Source of the DNA: a virus
Direction: 5' to 3' (one strand)
IMG/VR virus record: IMGVR_UViG_3300030450_002092
Location: 1-58,918 of that record
Length of the DNA: 58,918 nucleotides
Below the pieces are notes generated by a model, which saw only the letters and a program-made list of their open reading frames with translations, did no database searches and had not been told where the DNA came from. Numbering within the stretch: the first letter of the stretch is position 1; every line of letters starts with the position of its first letter. A program made the position numbers and the translations under genes. Below, piece by piece: positions 227 to 47,390 of the stretch.

Positions 227-792
227 TGCAATCTTTAGTTGACTTTATTATAACTCCTATTCAAAATCGAAGATATAATAATACTAAAAGTATTGGAAAC
301 GTAGAAGTTATAACAAGCACTTCTCAAGAAGATTTTAGATTTTCTAATAGAGAAGGTATAGTAGTAAATACTCCTAGGGATTATAATGGAGATATAAAAA
401 TTGGCGATACGTTATTAGTGCATCATAATGTTTTTAAATATTACTATGACATGAAAGGTAGAGAGCGGAGTGGTCGAAGTTTTTTAAAAGACAATTTATT
501 TATGGTAGACCAAGACCAGTTTTTTTTATACAAACAGAATGGTAAATGGAAGCCTCATAGTAAATATTGTTTTGTAAAACCTATAGATACGGAAGAATCT
601 ATTATTTATAAAAACACTAAACACGAGCCTTTAATAGGTATAATGAAATATGCAAACAAAGAGCTAACAGATTTAGGAGTGAAAAATGGAGATAGAGTTT
701 GTTTTAAACCTGACACAGAATATGAGTTTATAGTAGATGACGAAAAATTGTATCGTATAATGTCTCAAAGTATTACAGGAGTGTGGAAATGA
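226..792 (+). CDS. Tandem GroES-like co-chaperonin-fold protein
   Basis: 188 residues that read as two GroES-type beta-barrels in tandem. The second half (about residues 112-188) follows the co-chaperonin pattern: VKP near its start, then GVKNGDRVCF, a turn, and DDEKLYRIMSQSITGVW, matching the GroES order 'VKVGD..F ... GEEYLIMRESDILGV'. The first half (about 5-105) has the same KIGDTLLVHH and FLKDNLFMVDQDQFFLY elements. I infer a structural or chaperone role because it precedes the terminase genes. It is clearly different from the shorter GroES encoded beside GroEL at 51.2 kb. It could instead be a virion protein that has borrowed the fold. The stop overlaps the next small ORF (ATGA). Confidence 0.6.
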   Translation: MQSLVDFIITPIQNRRYNNTKSIGNVEVITSTSQEDFRFSNREGIVVNTPRDYNGDIKIGDTLLVHHNVFKYYYDMKGRERSGRSFLKDNLFMVDQDQFFLYKQNGKWKPHSKYCFVKPIDTEESIIYKNTKHEPLIGIMKYANKELTDLGVKNGDRVCFKPDTEYEFIVDDEKLYRIMSQSITGVWK

Positions 793-1149: not shown

Positions 1150-3373
1150 ATTATATCAAGTTGTAACTGGGGTTATACCTAAAAATGTTTTAACTAAAAA
1201 GAATAAAGCTAAATCATGGGTGTATGGTTATAATGAAAAATATAATGTTATTATTATTTCTAAAACAGGTCAAATAGGGGAGATTATAAGTATTAGCGGA
1301 TTAGACATAGCCTTGCCATTAGCCCCTGCAATTAGTCGTACACGACCAAAAAACCCTAAAGAACAATATTGGAGTAGAACAGAATACCCTAAAGCTTTGC
1401 AAAAAATTCCTAGTATTTTTATTTGGAATGACATGCCATCTACGTTTAAAAATAATTGGATTGATTATATTGAGCAAGAATTTGAACGAAGAGAAGATGG
1501 CCATTGGTTTTGGAATAACGGAGTTCAAACTTATATTACTGGCTCACATTATATGTATTTACAATGGACAAAAATTGATGTGGGGTTTCCTGATTTTAGA
1601 GAAGCAAACAGATTGTTTTATATTTATTGGGAAGCGTGCAAAGCAGATAATAGGAGTTTTGGAATTTGCTATTTAAAAATAAGACGTTCTGGATTTTCGT
1701 TTATGGGTTCCGAAGAATGTGCTAATATAGCTACTATATCGAAAGACTCTAGAATAGGTATACTATCCAAAACTGGAGCTGATGCTAAGAAAATGTTTAC
1801 TGACAAAGTTGTTCCAATTACTAATAATTATCCCTTCTTTTTTAAACCTATTCAAGACGGAATGGATAAGCCTAAAACTGAATTAGCTTTTAGAGTACCA
1901 GCATCTAAAATTACCAAAAAAAACATGCATTTAGAAGATGATTTTGAAATGGATGGATTGGACACAACTATTGACTGGAAAAATACAGATGATAACTCAT
2001 ATGATGGAGAAAAACTTTTATTGTTAGTACATGATGAAAGTGGTAAATGGATTAAGCCTAATGATATATTAAATAACTGGAGGGTTACTAAAACTTGTTT
2101 AAGATTAGGTAGAAAAATTATTGGAAAATGTATGATGGGTTCTACATCTAATGCATTAAGTAAAGGGGGTAGTAGTTTTAAAAAACTATATGAAGATTCA
2201 GATATTACTAAACGAAACGCAAATGGCCAAACTAAAAGCGGCCTATATAGTTTGTTCATACCAATGGAATGGAATATGGAAGGTTTTATTGATAAATACG
2301 GAATGCCTGTTTTATCTAACATTAAAAAACCCGTGTTAGGAATTGATAATGAGCTTATTAAAGTAGGAGCTATTGATTATTGGCAAAACGAAGTTGATTC
2401 TTTAAAGCAAGACTCTAACGCTTTAAATGAATTCTACAGACAATTTCCGCGTACTGAGTCTCACGCATTTAGGGATGAGTCAAAACAATCCTTATTTAAT
2501 CTAACTAAAATATACCAGCAAATTGATTACAATGATTCTTTAATTATAGGGCAGCATGTTAGTGTAGGAAATTTTAGATGGAAAAATGGAGTTAAAGATA
2601 CAGAGGTGATTTTTAGTCCAGACGCGCGAGGTAGATTTTATTTAGGATGGATACCTGAATCGAATTTAAGAAACAGAATAATAAAAAAAAATGGAATTAA
2701 TTACCCTGGTAATGAACACATTGGGTCATTTGGATGTGATAGTTATGATATTTCAGGCACGGTAGGAGGTAAGGGTTCTAATGGAGCTTTACACGGAATG
2801 ACAAAATATAATATGGATAATGCTCCAAGCAACAGCTTTTTTTTAGAATATGTGGCTAGACCTCAAACCGCAGAAATATTTTTTGAAGATGTATTGATGG
2901 CATGTGTATTTTACGGAATGCCTATATTATGTGAGAACAACAAACCTAGGCTTTTATATCATTTTAAAAATAGAGGATATAGGGGTTATAGTTTAAATCG
3001 ACCTGATAAAACATACAACAAATTATCTAAAACAGAAAAAGAGTTGGGAGGCATCCCAAACTCGAGTGAAGATGTAAAGCAATCTCATGCGGCAGCTATA
3101 GAGTCATTTATAGAAAAATATGTAGGGATTGATTTACAAGGAAACTACAGAGATAGTGATGAAATGGGAGATATGCTTTTTACTAGAACATTAGAGGATT
3201 GGGCTAAATTTGATATTAATAATAGAACAAAATTTGACGCATCAATTAGTTCAGGACTAGCTATTATGGCTAATCAAAAACACCTTTATACACCAGTTAA
3301 AAAACAATCAAAAATAAGCATTAACTTTGCAAGATATGCTAACAGTGGAATATATAGTGAATTAGTACAATAA
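1127..3373 (+). CDS. terL: Terminase large subunit
   Basis: 748-residue DNA-packaging motor. The ATPase domain has a deviant Walker A (KIRRSGFS, about residues 184-191) and a Walker B with catalytic acid (LLLLVHDES, about 297-305). The C-terminal half contains an RNase H-like nuclease signature, FGCDSYDIS near residue 540, with further acidic residues in the tail. It should cut the concatemer and power packaging through the portal encoded next. The start is a TTG at 1127 that overlaps the preceding ORF; I see no better in-frame ATG upstream of the conserved region. The gene also contains one copy (1332-1349) of a dispersed palindrome described separately. Confidence 0.9.
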   Translation: MQKETQNKLYQVVTGVIPKNVLTKKNKAKSWVYGYNEKYNVIIISKTGQIGEIISISGLDIALPLAPAISRTRPKNPKEQYWSRTEYPKALQKIPSIFIWNDMPSTFKNNWIDYIEQEFERREDGHWFWNNGVQTYITGSHYMYLQWTKIDVGFPDFREANRLFYIYWEACKADNRSFGICYLKIRRSGFSFMGSEECANIATISKDSRIGILSKTGADAKKMFTDKVVPITNNYPFFFKPIQDGMDKPKTELAFRVPASKITKKNMHLEDDFEMDGLDTTIDWKNTDDNSYDGEKLLLLVHDESGKWIKPNDILNNWRVTKTCLRLGRKIIGKCMMGSTSNALSKGGSSFKKLYEDSDITKRNANGQTKSGLYSLFIPMEWNMEGFIDKYGMPVLSNIKKPVLGIDNELIKVGAIDYWQNEVDSLKQDSNALNEFYRQFPRTESHAFRDESKQSLFNLTKIYQQIDYNDSLIIGQHVSVGNFRWKNGVKDTEVIFSPDARGRFYLGWIPESNLRNRIIKKNGINYPGNEHIGSFGCDSYDISGTVGGKGSNGALHGMTKYNMDNAPSNSFFLEYVARPQTAEIFFEDVLMACVFYGMPILCENNKPRLLYHFKNRGYRGYSLNRPDKTYNKLSKTEKELGGIPNSSEDVKQSHAAAIESFIEKYVGIDLQGNYRDSDEMGDMLFTRTLEDWAKFDINNRTKFDASISSGLAIMANQKHLYTPVKKQSKISINFARYANSGIYSELVQ
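1332..1349 (-). repeat. Dispersed palindrome copy 1, inside terminase
   Basis: TTGGTCG-TGTA-CGACTAA on the - strand, within the terminase reading frame. Extended identity of 23 bases with copy 5 (1330-1352). Confidence 0.7.
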
Positions 3374-18853: not shown

Positions 18854-19405
18854 ATGAGTAATATAGAAACAATAATTGCTGAGCAAGTTTTAGGAGAAGT
18901 AACCTCTAAGCGAGGAATGATGTGGGAAAAAATTGCGGAGTTTCAGTCTCAATTAGAAGAGATTGAAGGGGTTTTTACTCATAAATCAGGGGAAGAACAA
19001 AGTGAGGGATTACAAACTTATTTTCCTTTAGAACACACTTTTGAAGGTGGGCTCTATACTAGGCAAATTTTTATGCCAAAAGGAGCAGTTGTGGTAAGTA
19101 TGATACATAAAAAACAACACCCATCTTTTTTATTAAAAGGTGAGTTATCATATTTAACAGATGAAGGAAAAATTGTTAGAATTAAAGCTCCGTATACAGT
19201 CTTTACACAGGCAGGAGCTCAAAGAGTTTTTTATATTCACGAAGATGTAGTGTGGACGTGTGTGCATAAAACAAACAAAACAAATGTAAGAGAAGCAGAG
19301 CTTGAATTATTTTCAAATGATTTTAAAGATTTGCCTAAAAGTATAATAGATAAAAGAAAAAAAATATGTCAGCAGCAGCAACAGCAGCCATTATTGCAGG
19401 AGTAG
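18854..19405 (+). CDS. Cupin-like (RmlC-fold) protein
   Basis: 183 residues. About residues 57-140 show a cupin pattern: HTFEGGLYTRQIFMPKGAVV, an HKKQHP segment, FLLKGELSYLTDEGKIVRI, then APYTVFTQAGAQRVFYIHED. The His residues at the usual metal positions are partly kept. The C-terminal QQQQQQ tract is read from DNA that is also the start of the next gene (40-base overlap), so it may carry little function. It could be a virion-associated or metabolic cupin; the substrate is unknown. Confidence 0.55.
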   Translation: MSNIETIIAEQVLGEVTSKRGMMWEKIAEFQSQLEEIEGVFTHKSGEEQSEGLQTYFPLEHTFEGGLYTRQIFMPKGAVVVSMIHKKQHPSFLLKGELSYLTDEGKIVRIKAPYTVFTQAGAQRVFYIHEDVVWTCVHKTNKTNVREAELELFSNDFKDLPKSIIDKRKKICQQQQQQPLLQE

Positions 19406-43920: not shown

Positions 43921-43949
43921 AACAAAGCAGAGGTTAGCTAGTAACCTCT
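43921..43949 (-). terminator. Hairpin over the cyclotransferase stop codon
   Basis: 8-bp stem AGAGGTTA/TAACCTCT (43929-43936/43942-43949), 5-base loop. It includes the stop codon of the cyclotransferase gene and is followed on the - strand by CTTTGTTT. Probable weak terminator. Confidence 0.5.
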
Positions 43950-44629
43950 TGCTCTGAATACATTTCATTACACACACTGCAATGATATTTTTGATTGCTG
44001 ATTTCAGTTTCATCATAGTAAACTTCTTCAAAGCAAATGTTACAATACTTTGTATTGTCATCTTCTTTGTCTGCTATTGTTGACAATGAAGAGAATAAAT
44101 CCCTACGCTCGTGGTAACGAGTAGTAGGCTCGTAAGTGTACTGCTCATAGGTTGGCTTATCAGCGTATGAGTATCGCCTTGTACCAAAGCTAAATTTGGG
44201 TGTAATTGGAAAGCTTTTATGATACTTCATATTGGTTGATGAGATACTATCGTATCTATTCCAGTTATTGTTTATAAAGTATATCCAAGCATTTACTATC
44301 GTTCCATTGTTTAGCTTGATAGGTAGTTGCCTTCTGCGATAAAAATTCGGGTGTCCCTCTAGCGAATCAAGAGCAGAAAAGGTGTCATTGTTTACCTTAT
44401 ATACTTCGACTTCTACGTGGTGTCCACTTCCGCGTTTATCTAACAAGTAAGGCAGCCCGCTGATTACTAGCGGGTACCTATCTTTTGTCGTTCCTTTGTT
44501 TACAAATCGTTGGCCATACAATAATCTGTGATTGCCCCCGCCTTTCTTTAAAGTACCATACACTGCTACAACATTGTGCTGTAACACATTGGGTTTAGAA
44601 AACCAAACTCCATTGTGTTTTATCCACAT
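43934..44629 (-). CDS. Gamma-glutamylcyclotransferase-like protein with zinc ribbon
   Basis: 231 residues. The GGCT/AIG2 core starts with VAVYGTLKKGG (22-32), the substrate loop, and has the catalytic-type Glu91 in LDSLEGHPNFYRR. After a linker, a C-terminal zinc ribbon with two CxxC pairs (YCNICF and HCSVCNEMY) follows. The first 15 residues (MWIKHNGVWFSKPNV) actually resemble the end of a class II glutamine amidotransferase, and the frame is open up to that enzyme's TGA stop upstream. GGCT enzymes release 5-oxoproline from gamma-glutamyl amides. The substrate here is unknown; the neighbours suggest peptide amide metabolism. Confidence 0.75.
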   Translation of the reverse strand: MWIKHNGVWFSKPNVLQHNVVAVYGTLKKGGGNHRLLYGQRFVNKGTTKDRYPLVISGLPYLLDKRGSGHHVEVEVYKVNNDTFSALDSLEGHPNFYRRRQLPIKLNNGTIVNAWIYFINNNWNRYDSISSTNMKYHKSFPITPKFSFGTRRYSYADKPTYEQYTYEPTTRYHERRDLFSSLSTIADKEDDNTKYCNICFEEVYYDETEISNQKYHCSVCNEMYSEQEVTS

Positions 44630-44710
44630 TTCTTTGTTGTAGATTTCGTATTGTCGGTTGCGTTTGTTGTAAGTAACAAATCTAGAATCGTGCTGACCTA
44701 GTACTGCTCT

Positions 44711-45064
44711 TCATTGCTGCCTAGCAATACCGCCTAGTTCAATAGCAAGTTGCTTGCTATCACACATATCTTGTGTTCCATACCCGCGTATAGTTCCATT
44801 GTGCATAAGCAGTTCGTTACTATTATTACCGCATATAAATGGGTGGGTGTTTGCTTTGTTAATTTTCCCTTTAGTTGCTAATCTGAAATGAGCGATATAG
44901 GGTCTGTCTGTGTCTAGTACTTTCCATTCTTTAGACTGGTAGTATTCGACTTCATTGGTATCCAGAAAAATTACGCCTAGTCCGTGAGGATTGATGCGTG
45001 AAGAATTTTTAAGTATCTCTGGCGATACTTTTTTGTCTTTCGACTTTACAATAATTATACACAT
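44711..45064 (-). CDS. Class II glutamine amidotransferase-like protein, interrupted by TGA
   Basis: 117 residues with an N-terminal nucleophile hydrolase signature: Cys2 exposed after Met1, RINPHGLGVIFLD, AHFRLATKG (58-66), NTHPF (72-76) and MHNG (87-90). It stops at TGA (44711-44713), yet the same frame stays open and encodes SRFVTYNKRNRQYEIYNKE then WIKHNGVWFSKP, the expected C-terminal hairpin of this family, before entering the cyclotransferase. So the stop removes the enzyme's own C-terminus. Options: recent nonsense mutation, readthrough, or sequencing error. The reaction would be glutamine-dependent amide transfer or hydrolysis. Confidence 0.75.
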   Translation of the reverse strand: MCIIIVKSKDKKVSPEILKNSSRINPHGLGVIFLDTNEVEYYQSKEWKVLDTDRPYIAHFRLATKGKINKANTHPFICGNNSNELLMHNGTIRGYGTQDMCDSKQLAIELGGIARQQ

Positions 45065-45159: not shown

Positions 45160-45440
45160 CAATTTATGCGAAATTTTATTTCGTGTATTCTAGAAGACCG
45201 CTTCCAAATGTCTTCTTTGAATTTGTGTCTCGTGTTTTTTTTTGTGTCTCGTGTTTTTTTTTACAGCTCCTCCGCTTCCAGCTTCTTTGCTTCTGTATTT
45301 GTAAATCCCCTCTGCTTCTTTGCTTCCGCTCCCCATGCGTCTGCCATGCGTCTGCCATGCGTCTGCCAATCCCGCGGGATTAGCAAAGGAGGTTCGGCAA
45401 AAAAAATTCGGTTCGGTGAAAAAAAATTCGGTTCAAGGCA
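45136..45440. repeat. Repeat-rich, strand-asymmetric intergenic region
   Basis: About 300 bases between a terminator and a promoter with no convincing gene. It holds a 20-bp repeat TTTGTGTCTCGTG-T7 twice (from 45222 and 45241), three tandem 11-bp units ATGCGTCTGCC (45335-45367), a perfect 14-bp palindrome AATCCCGCGGGATT (45368-45381), two GCTTCTTTGCTTC elements, and two A-run/TTCGGTTC repeats. The + strand is pyrimidine-rich over most of it. A 60-codon - strand reading frame (45176-45358) is low-complexity and I do not accept it as a gene. A replication or regulatory site is possible. Confidence 0.55.
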
Positions 45441-46182: not shown

Positions 46183-46206
46183 AATATTTGTTTTTAAATT
46201 GTTTAA

Positions 46207-46257
46207 TCTGTTTCATCGTTTTCGAATCATCAGGCACGACATTCATCGCACTACAGA
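46207..46257 (-). ncRNA. Hammerhead ribozyme candidate, type III
   Basis: Read on the - strand: stem III UCUGU (46257-46253), A17 at 46252 (predicted cleavage after it), stem I GUGCGA/UCGUGC with loop UGAAUG, core CUGAUGA (46233-46227), stem II UCG/CGA with an AAAA loop, core GAA (46214-46212), then ACAGA (46211-46207) closing stem III with the required A15.1-U16.1 pair. All conserved core bases are present. The unusual points are a U-U mismatch at 10.1/11.1, A rather than C at position 17, and two wobble pairs in stem I. It lies between the amidoligase stop and the next gene. Confidence 0.65.
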
Positions 46258-46289
46258 GGGCAGTTTATACAGCTGCCCAGCTGTGTCAA

Positions 46290-47390
46290 TCATCTTTTGC
46301 GTGCAAAAGAGATTTCCCCTCGTTTCCACAATCGAAACGCTGTCGGTGTTGTTATCGATTTCACAACCGCTAACTCATCGCGGTGCATTCTAGCTGGATT
46401 TTGGTATCTGTTCCAAATAAAAGGCAATACAACGTGGTTAATTTTGTTAGTCATTAACATTTTTCTAAAGTGTTTTGATAACTCAATTAACATTTCAACC
46501 TTGCCCTCATCGTTGTTATACATCGATAATAAAGTTGGTTTTAACTTCTTAATCAATTTTGCATAACTCCCTCTATCATTAACAGCAAAATCAACAATAA
46601 TTTGCATTAATTTATATCTGTTAATCATTTGTTTTACGCTAGTAAATCGGCTCCATAATCTAAACTCCAGTAAACCTAATCTTGATTTCTCAAATATTGG
46701 CTGGTATTTTGTACCTCTAGCAGCGTTGATATGGTCTGATATAGATTCGCTAGTTGTTCTCGCTGTAACGTTATTGCAGCAAAACTGGTTAGCTAATCTC
46801 TTGCGGTTAAGAGCGTAAATGATTGCGTAATAAGGCCTCATCAGTTCATTTAATTCACTACTGGTATGATTTGCGCTAGCAATAGTCATATGGCCGCCAC
46901 ATCTGTAAGACCCATAGTCATTCATTTCATCTGACTGGCTGTAATTTTCATCGATTAAATACTTTGCTTTATGCATTAAATCAAATATTTTATTACGCCA
47001 TTTGCTCATTGGGATAAGTGGTAAAATATTAGTGATGGCTTCAAGTCCGCAGCTCCCATCTCTTTCAATCCCTTTCATTAATTGACAAAAATAATTCAAT
47101 TCGCTACCAGTTAAAACATCTCTAGAAATTCTCGATTTCTCTACTTCCATTCCGATAGTAAATTTTGATTTGTAAACAAACTCAGAAGATTCTAATACTC
47201 TGGTTATGTTGTTTGCTCTTTGTTTCTTTGTCATTCCAGTTAAATCAACCTCAAATTTTGTATTTGCGTAGTCCTCTGGATTCGGGCTACATTGATAAGG
47301 CTGTACAACAATTCTAGAACGCTGATTGCCATTTGAATTGGCCGCCAGCTGCTCTAGTTTGTCATACTTTTTTCCGATTAAATTTTTCAT
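46290..47390 (-). CDS. Amidoligase (COOH-NH2 ligase family)
   Basis: 366 residues with the phage-type amidoligase pattern: TIGMEVE (78-84), ERDGSCGLE (109-117), CGGHMTIAS (164-172) and LEFRLW (241-246), the order seen in the glutamine synthetase/GCS-like amidoligase_2 family. Such enzymes use ATP to join a carboxylate to an amine, forming amide or peptide bonds. In other phages this family is reported beside GGCT and class II amidotransferase genes, as here. The substrate (cell wall peptide, host protein or small metabolite) cannot be told. The 3' end forms an 8-bp inverted repeat TCTTTTGC/GCAAAAGA (46293-46310). Confidence 0.75.
   Translation of the reverse strand: MKNLIGKKYDKLEQLAANSNGNQRSRIVVQPYQCSPNPEDYANTKFEVDLTGMTKKQRANNITRVLESSEFVYKSKFTIGMEVEKSRISRDVLTGSELNYFCQLMKGIERDGSCGLEAITNILPLIPMSKWRNKIFDLMHKAKYLIDENYSQSDEMNDYGSYRCGGHMTIASANHTSSELNELMRPYYAIIYALNRKRLANQFCCNNVTARTTSESISDHINAARGTKYQPIFEKSRLGLLEFRLWSRFTSVKQMINRYKLMQIIVDFAVNDRGSYAKLIKKLKPTLLSMYNNDEGKVEMLIELSKHFRKMLMTNKINHVVLPFIWNRYQNPARMHRDELAVVKSITTPTAFRLWKRGEISFARKR

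Follow-up and report, generated by a model that had tools for sequence, protein, structure and literature searches.

We describe here an element of 51 nucleotides (nt) in a viral DNA of 58,918 nt, IMG/VR record IMGVR_UViG_3300030450_002092 (the window, meaning the whole stretch analysed): at positions 46207–46257, read on the minus strand, it has the sequence and fold of a type III hammerhead ribozyme, and it lies between two genes that run in the same direction. We consider it very likely that this is a cis-acting, self-cleaving ribozyme of the class having U10.1, U11.1 and A17, that it would serve as a protein-free intercistronic processing site capping both of the resulting RNA ends with hairpins, and that it would travel as a cassette. 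Its structure, class membership, conserved placing, abutting hairpin and cassette pattern have each been established by computation.

All of the fixed hammerhead bases are present: CUGAUGA at 46227–46233 (consensus CUGANGA), GAA at 46212–46214, the A15.1–U16.1 pair and an allowed nucleotide (H17) at the cleavage site. Stem III is formed by 46253–46257 with 46207–46211 (UCUGU/ACAGA) and is open; stems I and II are closed by loops, giving the type III topology. The initial annotation had named these same bases and stems, and the sequence bears it out. The predicted cut falls between 46252 (A17) and 46251 (position 1.1), the lower part of stem I holds two G–U wobbles, and in place of the canonical 10.1–11.1 pair there is a U–U apposition. 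Loop I (UGAAUG, mostly UGWGUG in the family) and loop II (AAAA) agree with those of the family, in a comparison of loop sequence alone. The component parts are:

46207–46257, minus strand: type III hammerhead ribozyme, 51 nt (from the sequence, a structural finder, Rfam, and the covariance models R1 and R2)
46252, minus strand: A17, the cleavage-site nucleotide; not C, as in 107 of the 109 U–U type III elements
46234–46251, minus strand: stem I hairpin with loop UGAAUG (from the sequence); its 18-nt length is typical of the family
46215–46226, minus strand: U10.1 (46226), stem II, UCG-AAAA-CGA (46216–46225), and U11.1 (46215), the two uridines forming the U–U closing mismatch

The core motif alone carries little weight: CTGATGA-N4-20-GAAA occurs twice in the window against 0.76 expected, 15 of 100 shuffles contain as many, and the bare motif was rejected as proof of a hammerhead because it is not significant. 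For the full structure, the structural finder yields a single match in the 58,918 bases; on 4.17 Mb of simulated sequence it gave two matches in loose mode and none in strict mode. R1 is a covariance model built from 45 G–C-class phage hammerheads, none of them close kin of the window element, and R2 was built from 44 U–U elements, likewise without kin (training sets of 45/128 G–C and 44/109 U–U elements, at <85% identity, the first 45 being taken and one kin removed from the U–U set). R1 finds the element with 51.0 bits (E = 2.3e-12 in 615 kb) and R2 with 63.3 bits (E = 1.9e-14). A search with hammerhead models had been proposed as a check at the outset, and with both of these models it comes out positive; the score with the Rfam model RF00008 is below gathering. 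Having uridines at 10.1 and 11.1 and a nucleotide other than C at position 17, by which the class is defined here, the window element is an ordinary member of the U–U class.

The U–U mismatch and A17 had initially been listed as weak points; they are not flaws, and together they mark a class that is common in phages. The loci come from three pattern scans, each returning at least 120 loci and treated as a sample: one pattern has a G–C pair at 10.1/11.1, the second has T at both positions, and the third is unselected there; none fixes position 17. In viral contigs, the G–C pattern matches at least 120 loci, and in 114 of the 120 listed, independent stems confirm full hammerheads (131 type III and 39 type I); the U–U pattern also matches at least 120 loci, 98 of its 124 matches having stems I and III (118 listed loci examined). 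Among 247 distinct type III elements, which include the window element and its near-identical kin, position 17 is C in 99, A in 27 and U in two with the G–C pair, and A in 96, U in 11 and C in two with U–U (other closing pairs: A–A with U in six and C in one, G–U with A in two, C–U with A in one). C17 is, therefore, found in 99/128 G–C versus 2/109 U–U elements (Fisher p 3e-37, comparing C with all other nucleotides).

The unselected sample (113 of the 120 loci of the third scan, with 96 distinct elements) comprises 57 G–C (C 44, A 12, U 1), 31 U–U (A 26, U 5), six A–A (U 5, C 1) and two G–U elements (both A). When elements are clustered below 80% identity, C17 is present in 29/41 G–C and 0/35 U–U; in the 37 loci that contain both classes, position 17 is A in 47, U in four and C in none of the U–U elements, and C in 35 and A in 11 of the G–C elements; and stratification of the coupling by stem III 5-mer gives a chi-square of 95.9. 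Moreover, in type I elements, where the parts follow a different linear order, G–C goes with C (72) or A (10), and U–U with A (10, drawn from few lineages); the remainder are G–U with A (2), C–A with C (1) and A–A with A (1). Stems of 45 U–U elements show 249 double-changed cells versus 62.5 in shuffles; pairing was a selection criterion, so that the percentages of paired cells are inflated but the variety of pair types is not. The 10.1–11.1 pair has not been treated here as strictly defining, U–U being a recognized natural variant that makes up 31 of the 96 distinct elements of the unselected sample. A third state, A10.1/A11.1, is seen in seven distinct type III elements (L029, L184, L246, L269, L270, L282 and L290), six with U17 and one with C17.

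We would suggest, tentatively, that the 10.1/11.1 pair and position 17 are coupled in a single module, whose states are (G–C, C17), (U–U, A17 or U17) and perhaps (A–A, U17). The U–U state would remove the metal ligand G10.1 and re-tune the active site through another stacking partner, and phages would retain both states within a genome as ribozymes that differ in speed or in the ions they need. Such a coupling has a plausible structural basis. As described in PMC11300833, the nucleotide base 5′ of the cut is stacked on G12, whose pair with A9 adjoins 10.1–11.1; metal ions bind the A9 phosphate and G10.1, as described in PMC7151607, and it is for this reason that the U–U state would cost the G10.1 ligand.

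The class extends to cultured phages. When a U–U/A17 element of a metagenomic contig is used as query, it matches 76 phage records, of which 72 belong to Pseudomonas phages, mostly at 94–96% identity over 47 nt. In PaP3 (Bruynoghevirus), the hammerhead (NC_004466.2, 45418–45468, minus strand) has U10.1/U11.1 and A17 and scores 70.4 bits with R2. The legend to Figure S6 of Perreault et al. (PMC3088659) places PaP3 among active hammerheads with core variations, and, going by the sequence, the variation in question would be the U–U mismatch; section 8 of the same paper reports this mismatch and states that U–U is more active than any other mispair. The PaP3 element resembles that of the window in its U–U, its A17 and its 18-nt stem I hairpin, and it directly precedes the outermost in a run of leftward genes; it differs in its stem II loop (UAAA) and in the genus of its phage, which has Pseudomonas as host. 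With Rfam 15, no hammerhead is reported for the stretches examined from phiIBB-PAA2 (L377) and PaP3 (L378), even at E up to 1. Both of these Bruynoghevirus phages carry a U–U type III element before the first gene; additionally, an apparent type I hammerhead with C17 and G–C is present further along (L377, about 2508–2585, plus strand; L378, about 530–610, minus strand).

With RF00008 (Hammerhead_3) the window element shares the three stems, the CUGANGA and GAA core, A15.1–U16.1 and the open stem III; it differs in having U–U for G–C at 10.1/11.1, A17 and an abutting upstream hairpin. Perreault et al. described in 2011 intergenic prophage hammerheads, several per phage, and proposed that they cleave long transcripts into mRNAs of operon or gene length (PMC3088659). 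Those arrays are in other prophages, and the passages of that paper considered here mention neither the abutting hairpin, nor a fixed spacing, nor the position 17 coupling. The RAGATH-1 hammerhead (RF03152) matches the relatives' type I partner elements, with scores below gathering; its topology is type I and it does not correspond to the window element. The terminase of the window is closest to that of MW202828 (73.6%), followed by those of Flavobacterium elemo phages (46.7%), and Cellulophaga, Tenacibaculum and Maribacter phages also match. In elemoC_14-1A (NC_062743.1), a type III hammerhead at 19044–19098 (minus strand; Rfam E 1.6e-5) precedes the first leftward gene by about 15 nt; it departs from the window element in that gene position, in its G–C at 10.1/11.1 and in having A as N7, and a type I-like element is found downstream of it. 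The annotated opposite-strand gene gp68 of elemoC overlies a type I/RAGATH-1-like hammerhead (L351, 16953–17033, minus strand; 21.4 bits, below gathering) and is probably a false gene. The structural finder reported a type I element in Cellulophaga phi19:3 and no hammerhead in MW202828 (both stretches), Cellulophaga phi38:1 (50 kb) or Tenacibaculum Gundel_1 (49 kb). A nucleotide search of named phages with the element region gave no match, and a 51-nt G–C-class query gave only weak partial matches there.

The placing of the element is likewise that of a family. On the minus strand, its surroundings are:

46290–47390, minus strand: upstream gene, 366 amino acids (aa), with homologues in seven viral contigs
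46288–46314, minus strand: hairpin, perhaps coincidental, made up of the final codons of the upstream gene and its stop
46258–46278, minus strand: hairpin GGGCAG-9 nt-CUGCCC, 6 base pairs (bp), with no spacer to the 5′ end of stem III
46183–46206, minus strand: A-rich leader of 24 nt, from the hammerhead to the next start codon
45487–46182, minus strand: downstream gene, 231 aa, of no known family; homologues confined to the two nearest contigs, L001 and that of L002/L156
45440–45466, minus strand: intrinsic-terminator-like hairpin with T9, after the 231-aa gene

The element begins 32 nt after the stop of the 366-aa gene and ends 24 nt before the start of the 231-aa gene, all on the same strand; co-directional genes and short spacers are what is expected of phage intercistronic hammerheads. 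This 32/24 nt spacing is typical of the family: 138 type III elements lie a median of 33 nt from the upstream stop (quartiles 27–43) and 24 nt from the next start (20–90), and 47 type I elements a median of 0 nt (−6 to 4) and 20.5 nt, respectively, the spacings being counted where the neighbour lies on the same strand. By crude open reading frame (ORF) calls, both neighbours are on the strand of the hammerhead for 99/138 type III and 43/47 type I elements; the crude gene caller also puts 42/138 type III and 8/47 type I elements mostly within an ORF, on either strand, of 50 aa or more.

A search with the upstream protein reached seven viral contigs, two of them nearly identical to the window. 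Compared with the window, one of the near relatives (L001) has two substitutions in stem I, through which a G–U and a U–G wobble become G–C and U–A, and its core is unchanged. Four contigs whose upstream protein is 40–41% identical (L004–L007) all have textbook type III hammerheads directly after the homologous gene; the hammerheads of these contigs score 74.0, 72.5, 72.5, 70.8, 56.9 and 49.8 bits with R1, and type I hammerheads occur nearby in three of the four (L004, L006 and L007). The comparison with related phages that the initial annotation had suggested is thus positive, and it supports a type III hammerhead between two co-directional genes, with the cleavage site as first given (5′ end at 46251). 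Three to five hammerheads were called in each of G004, G006 and G007; several per genome would be usual for such elements, and the 58.9-kb window record has one only. The 231-aa gene was tried as a guide to relatives and abandoned, as it reached the two nearest contigs only.

The cassette pattern is seen most directly in L003 (69% identical upstream protein), in which nothing separates the upstream gene from the terminator found after the 231-aa gene in the window; hairpin, hammerhead and 231-aa gene have therefore been gained or lost together, as one cassette. In a second case, a 66-aa gene and a type I hammerhead are present in G006 and absent from G007, between otherwise matching genes.

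Two further hairpins and an inverted repeat upstream of the ribozyme had been noted initially; they do exist (46258–46278, 46288–46314 and 46269–46284, respectively), but the abutting hairpin is part of a composite element rather than a separate curiosity. Of 88 nonredundant type III elements, 61 have a perfect stem of 6 bp or more that ends 0–1 nt before stem III, whereas 50 shuffles gave 3.8 on average and 8 at most; the shuffles behind this and the other hairpin counts preserve mononucleotide composition only. Type I elements show no such upstream excess (any stem of at least 6 bp in 10/37; shuffles 0.31). The inverted repeat around ACAGCUGGGCAGCUGU (46269–46284, minus strand) competes with the abutting hairpin. 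The ACAG at 46281–46284 could mask the 5′ strand of stem III, whether as a switch specific to the window or by chance; as a conserved switch, sequestration of stem III by an upstream ACAG was rejected for the family (5/144; shuffled rate 0.042).

Cleavage of the window copy, its rate and its consequences for RNA stability and expression are what we infer from these observations. Where the two genes are cotranscribed, the RNA would cut itself between 46252 and 46251. The upstream message would then end in a stable hairpin followed by a six-nucleotide tail with a 2′,3′-cyclic phosphate, and the downstream message would start with a 5′-OH and the hairpin of stem I, its start codon following after about 70 nt. 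In this way, the element would provide an intercistronic processing site that needs no protein and gives a hairpin cap to both new RNA ends, and it would travel with the gene that it precedes, as a cassette. Once cleaved, a type I element provides the upstream RNA with a 3′-terminal hairpin, its stem III, but a type III element goes with the downstream RNA. On our reading, the added hairpin restores a 3′ hairpin in the type III case, a role for which assistance in folding is the main rival.

Several observations weigh against this interpretation. The end-to-end match to RF00008 scores 23.2 bits (E 0.024 in an 801-nt search), less than the gathering score of 48.5; at the gathering threshold Rfam has no match anywhere in the window, and the element is also unlisted in a permissive cmscan of the whole window. 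An RF00008 search of the window record alone gives E 4.2e-4, although with its loose limit the same search also fires in 8/14 control genomes. The gathering score is, however, reached by none of the eight records examined, and because these and the listed-active element of PaP3, unmatched at E up to 1, all fail it, the RF00008 cut-off does not separate active from inactive elements here. A competing fold, in which 46281–46284 pairs with the 5′ strand of stem III, is favoured over the active one by 5.2 kcal/mol, in nearest-neighbour energies that leave tertiary contacts out of account. An abutting stem of at least 6 bp is less frequent in the U–U class (38/109; shuffles 6.4) than in the G–C class (86/128; shuffles 5.65), and therefore is not obligatory. 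Finally, the structural finder detects no hammerhead in L003, from which it follows that the element is dispensable to the phage lineage.

The score and the competing fold would suit a decayed hammerhead, in which U–U and A17 represent inactivating drift: the 51.0 bits with R1 is below most of the hammerheads in L004–L007, and the alternative pairing is favoured energetically. Such a relic is, nonetheless, improbable, since U–U elements are abundant, keep all the other core bases and have covarying stems, the coupling with position 17 is unexpected under drift, the changes between L001 and the window all keep pairing, and PaP3, with the same U–U and A17, is listed as active (PMC3088659). In favour of chance resemblance stands the expectation of 0.76 bare core motifs per window, but this reading is in effect refuted by the E values of 2.3e-12 and 1.9e-14, by the placing and by the homologous junctions. 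It is somewhat unlikely, though it deserves more weight than either, that the classes differ simply in speed, U–U/A17 being slow and G–C/C17 fast, and are mixed to order the processing along one transcript. The two do occur together in 37 loci, and U–U, albeit the best mispair, is still a mispair (PMC3088659, section 8); mere slowing, however, predicts that U–U/C17 should be about as frequent as G–C/A17, and these are seen in 2/109 and 27/128, respectively. The near absence of the former and the presence of the latter therefore favour a specific interaction.

A role at the level of DNA and evolution is also conceivable, namely that the hairpin–hammerhead blocks are homology patches for cassette recombination and that cleavage insulates the newcomers. 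Hammerhead-bounded cassettes are indeed present or absent as a whole (the window versus L003, and G006 versus G007), and the flanked genes are described by Perreault et al. as not constant (PMC3088659); but the stems covary and are not identical, so it is the catalytic bases, and not sequence homology, that are kept, and we regard this role as unlikely. Closer to contention, if still short of an even prospect, is that the abutting hairpin aids folding by stacking coaxially on the open stem III, rather than capping a 3′ end: it abuts at a distance of 0–1 nt, stem III of type III elements is short, and the extra hairpin is not in excess in type I. This last observation does not discriminate: in type I that 3′ end already bears the element's stem III hairpin, so that the cap reading predicts the same pattern. 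Overall, a processing site that caps both RNA ends accounts best for the data.

Phage hammerheads that split transcripts, and the U–U mismatch, were already in print in 2011. Our literature search found no report linking position 17 with 10.1/11.1 and no description of the abutting hairpin; subscription papers, preprints and supplements lay outside it, as did the complete set of hammerheads of the 2011 paper, in which the coupling may already be visible. Should the coupling be real, the choice of cut-site nucleotide would be tied to the stem pair that, after 15.1–16.1, is the most conserved. This would matter for the role of the G10.1 metal site and also for hammerhead searching, because the lack of any Rfam report of the PaP3 element points to a gap in the library. 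Similarly, a hairpin plus hammerhead at fixed spacing between genes offers a concrete, testable role, that of protein-free processing with capping of both RNA ends, and such elements are carried by the Flavobacterium elemo phages and by PaP3/LUZ24-like phages, many of them recorded on Pseudomonas aeruginosa PAO1.

As to the neighbouring genes, neither the 366-aa nor the 231-aa product has a match in Pfam or PHROGs, and neither the label of amidoligase that the initial annotation gave to the former nor its designation of the two genes as early was confirmed. GATase_4-like and GGACT (AIG2-like) genes are found just downstream (43934–45064, minus strand); next to the 366-aa gene, they suggest an amidoligase/glutamyl-cyclotransferase peptide-modification cluster. 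The gap after the terminator (about 45340–45440, minus strand) contains short tandem-like repeats, GGCAGACGCAT three times and ACCGAATTTTTTTT twice.

Matches were also found beyond phages of this size. A type III hammerhead lies in a 242-kb viral contig (L068, 3314–3364, minus strand), and the family may extend to very large phages. G–C-class type III hammerheads are present in Patescibacteria (the candidate phyla radiation, CPR): 36 of the 44 matches in genome_contigs bear CPR names (L305–L348; G008, G009 and G011). The literature search found no paper combining hammerhead, Patescibacteria and ribozyme. A strong match is present in 25/286 Patescibacteria genomes (24/285 without the seed), versus 1/150 in a control phylum (the seed itself), and one Saccharibacteria genome carries eight on several contigs.
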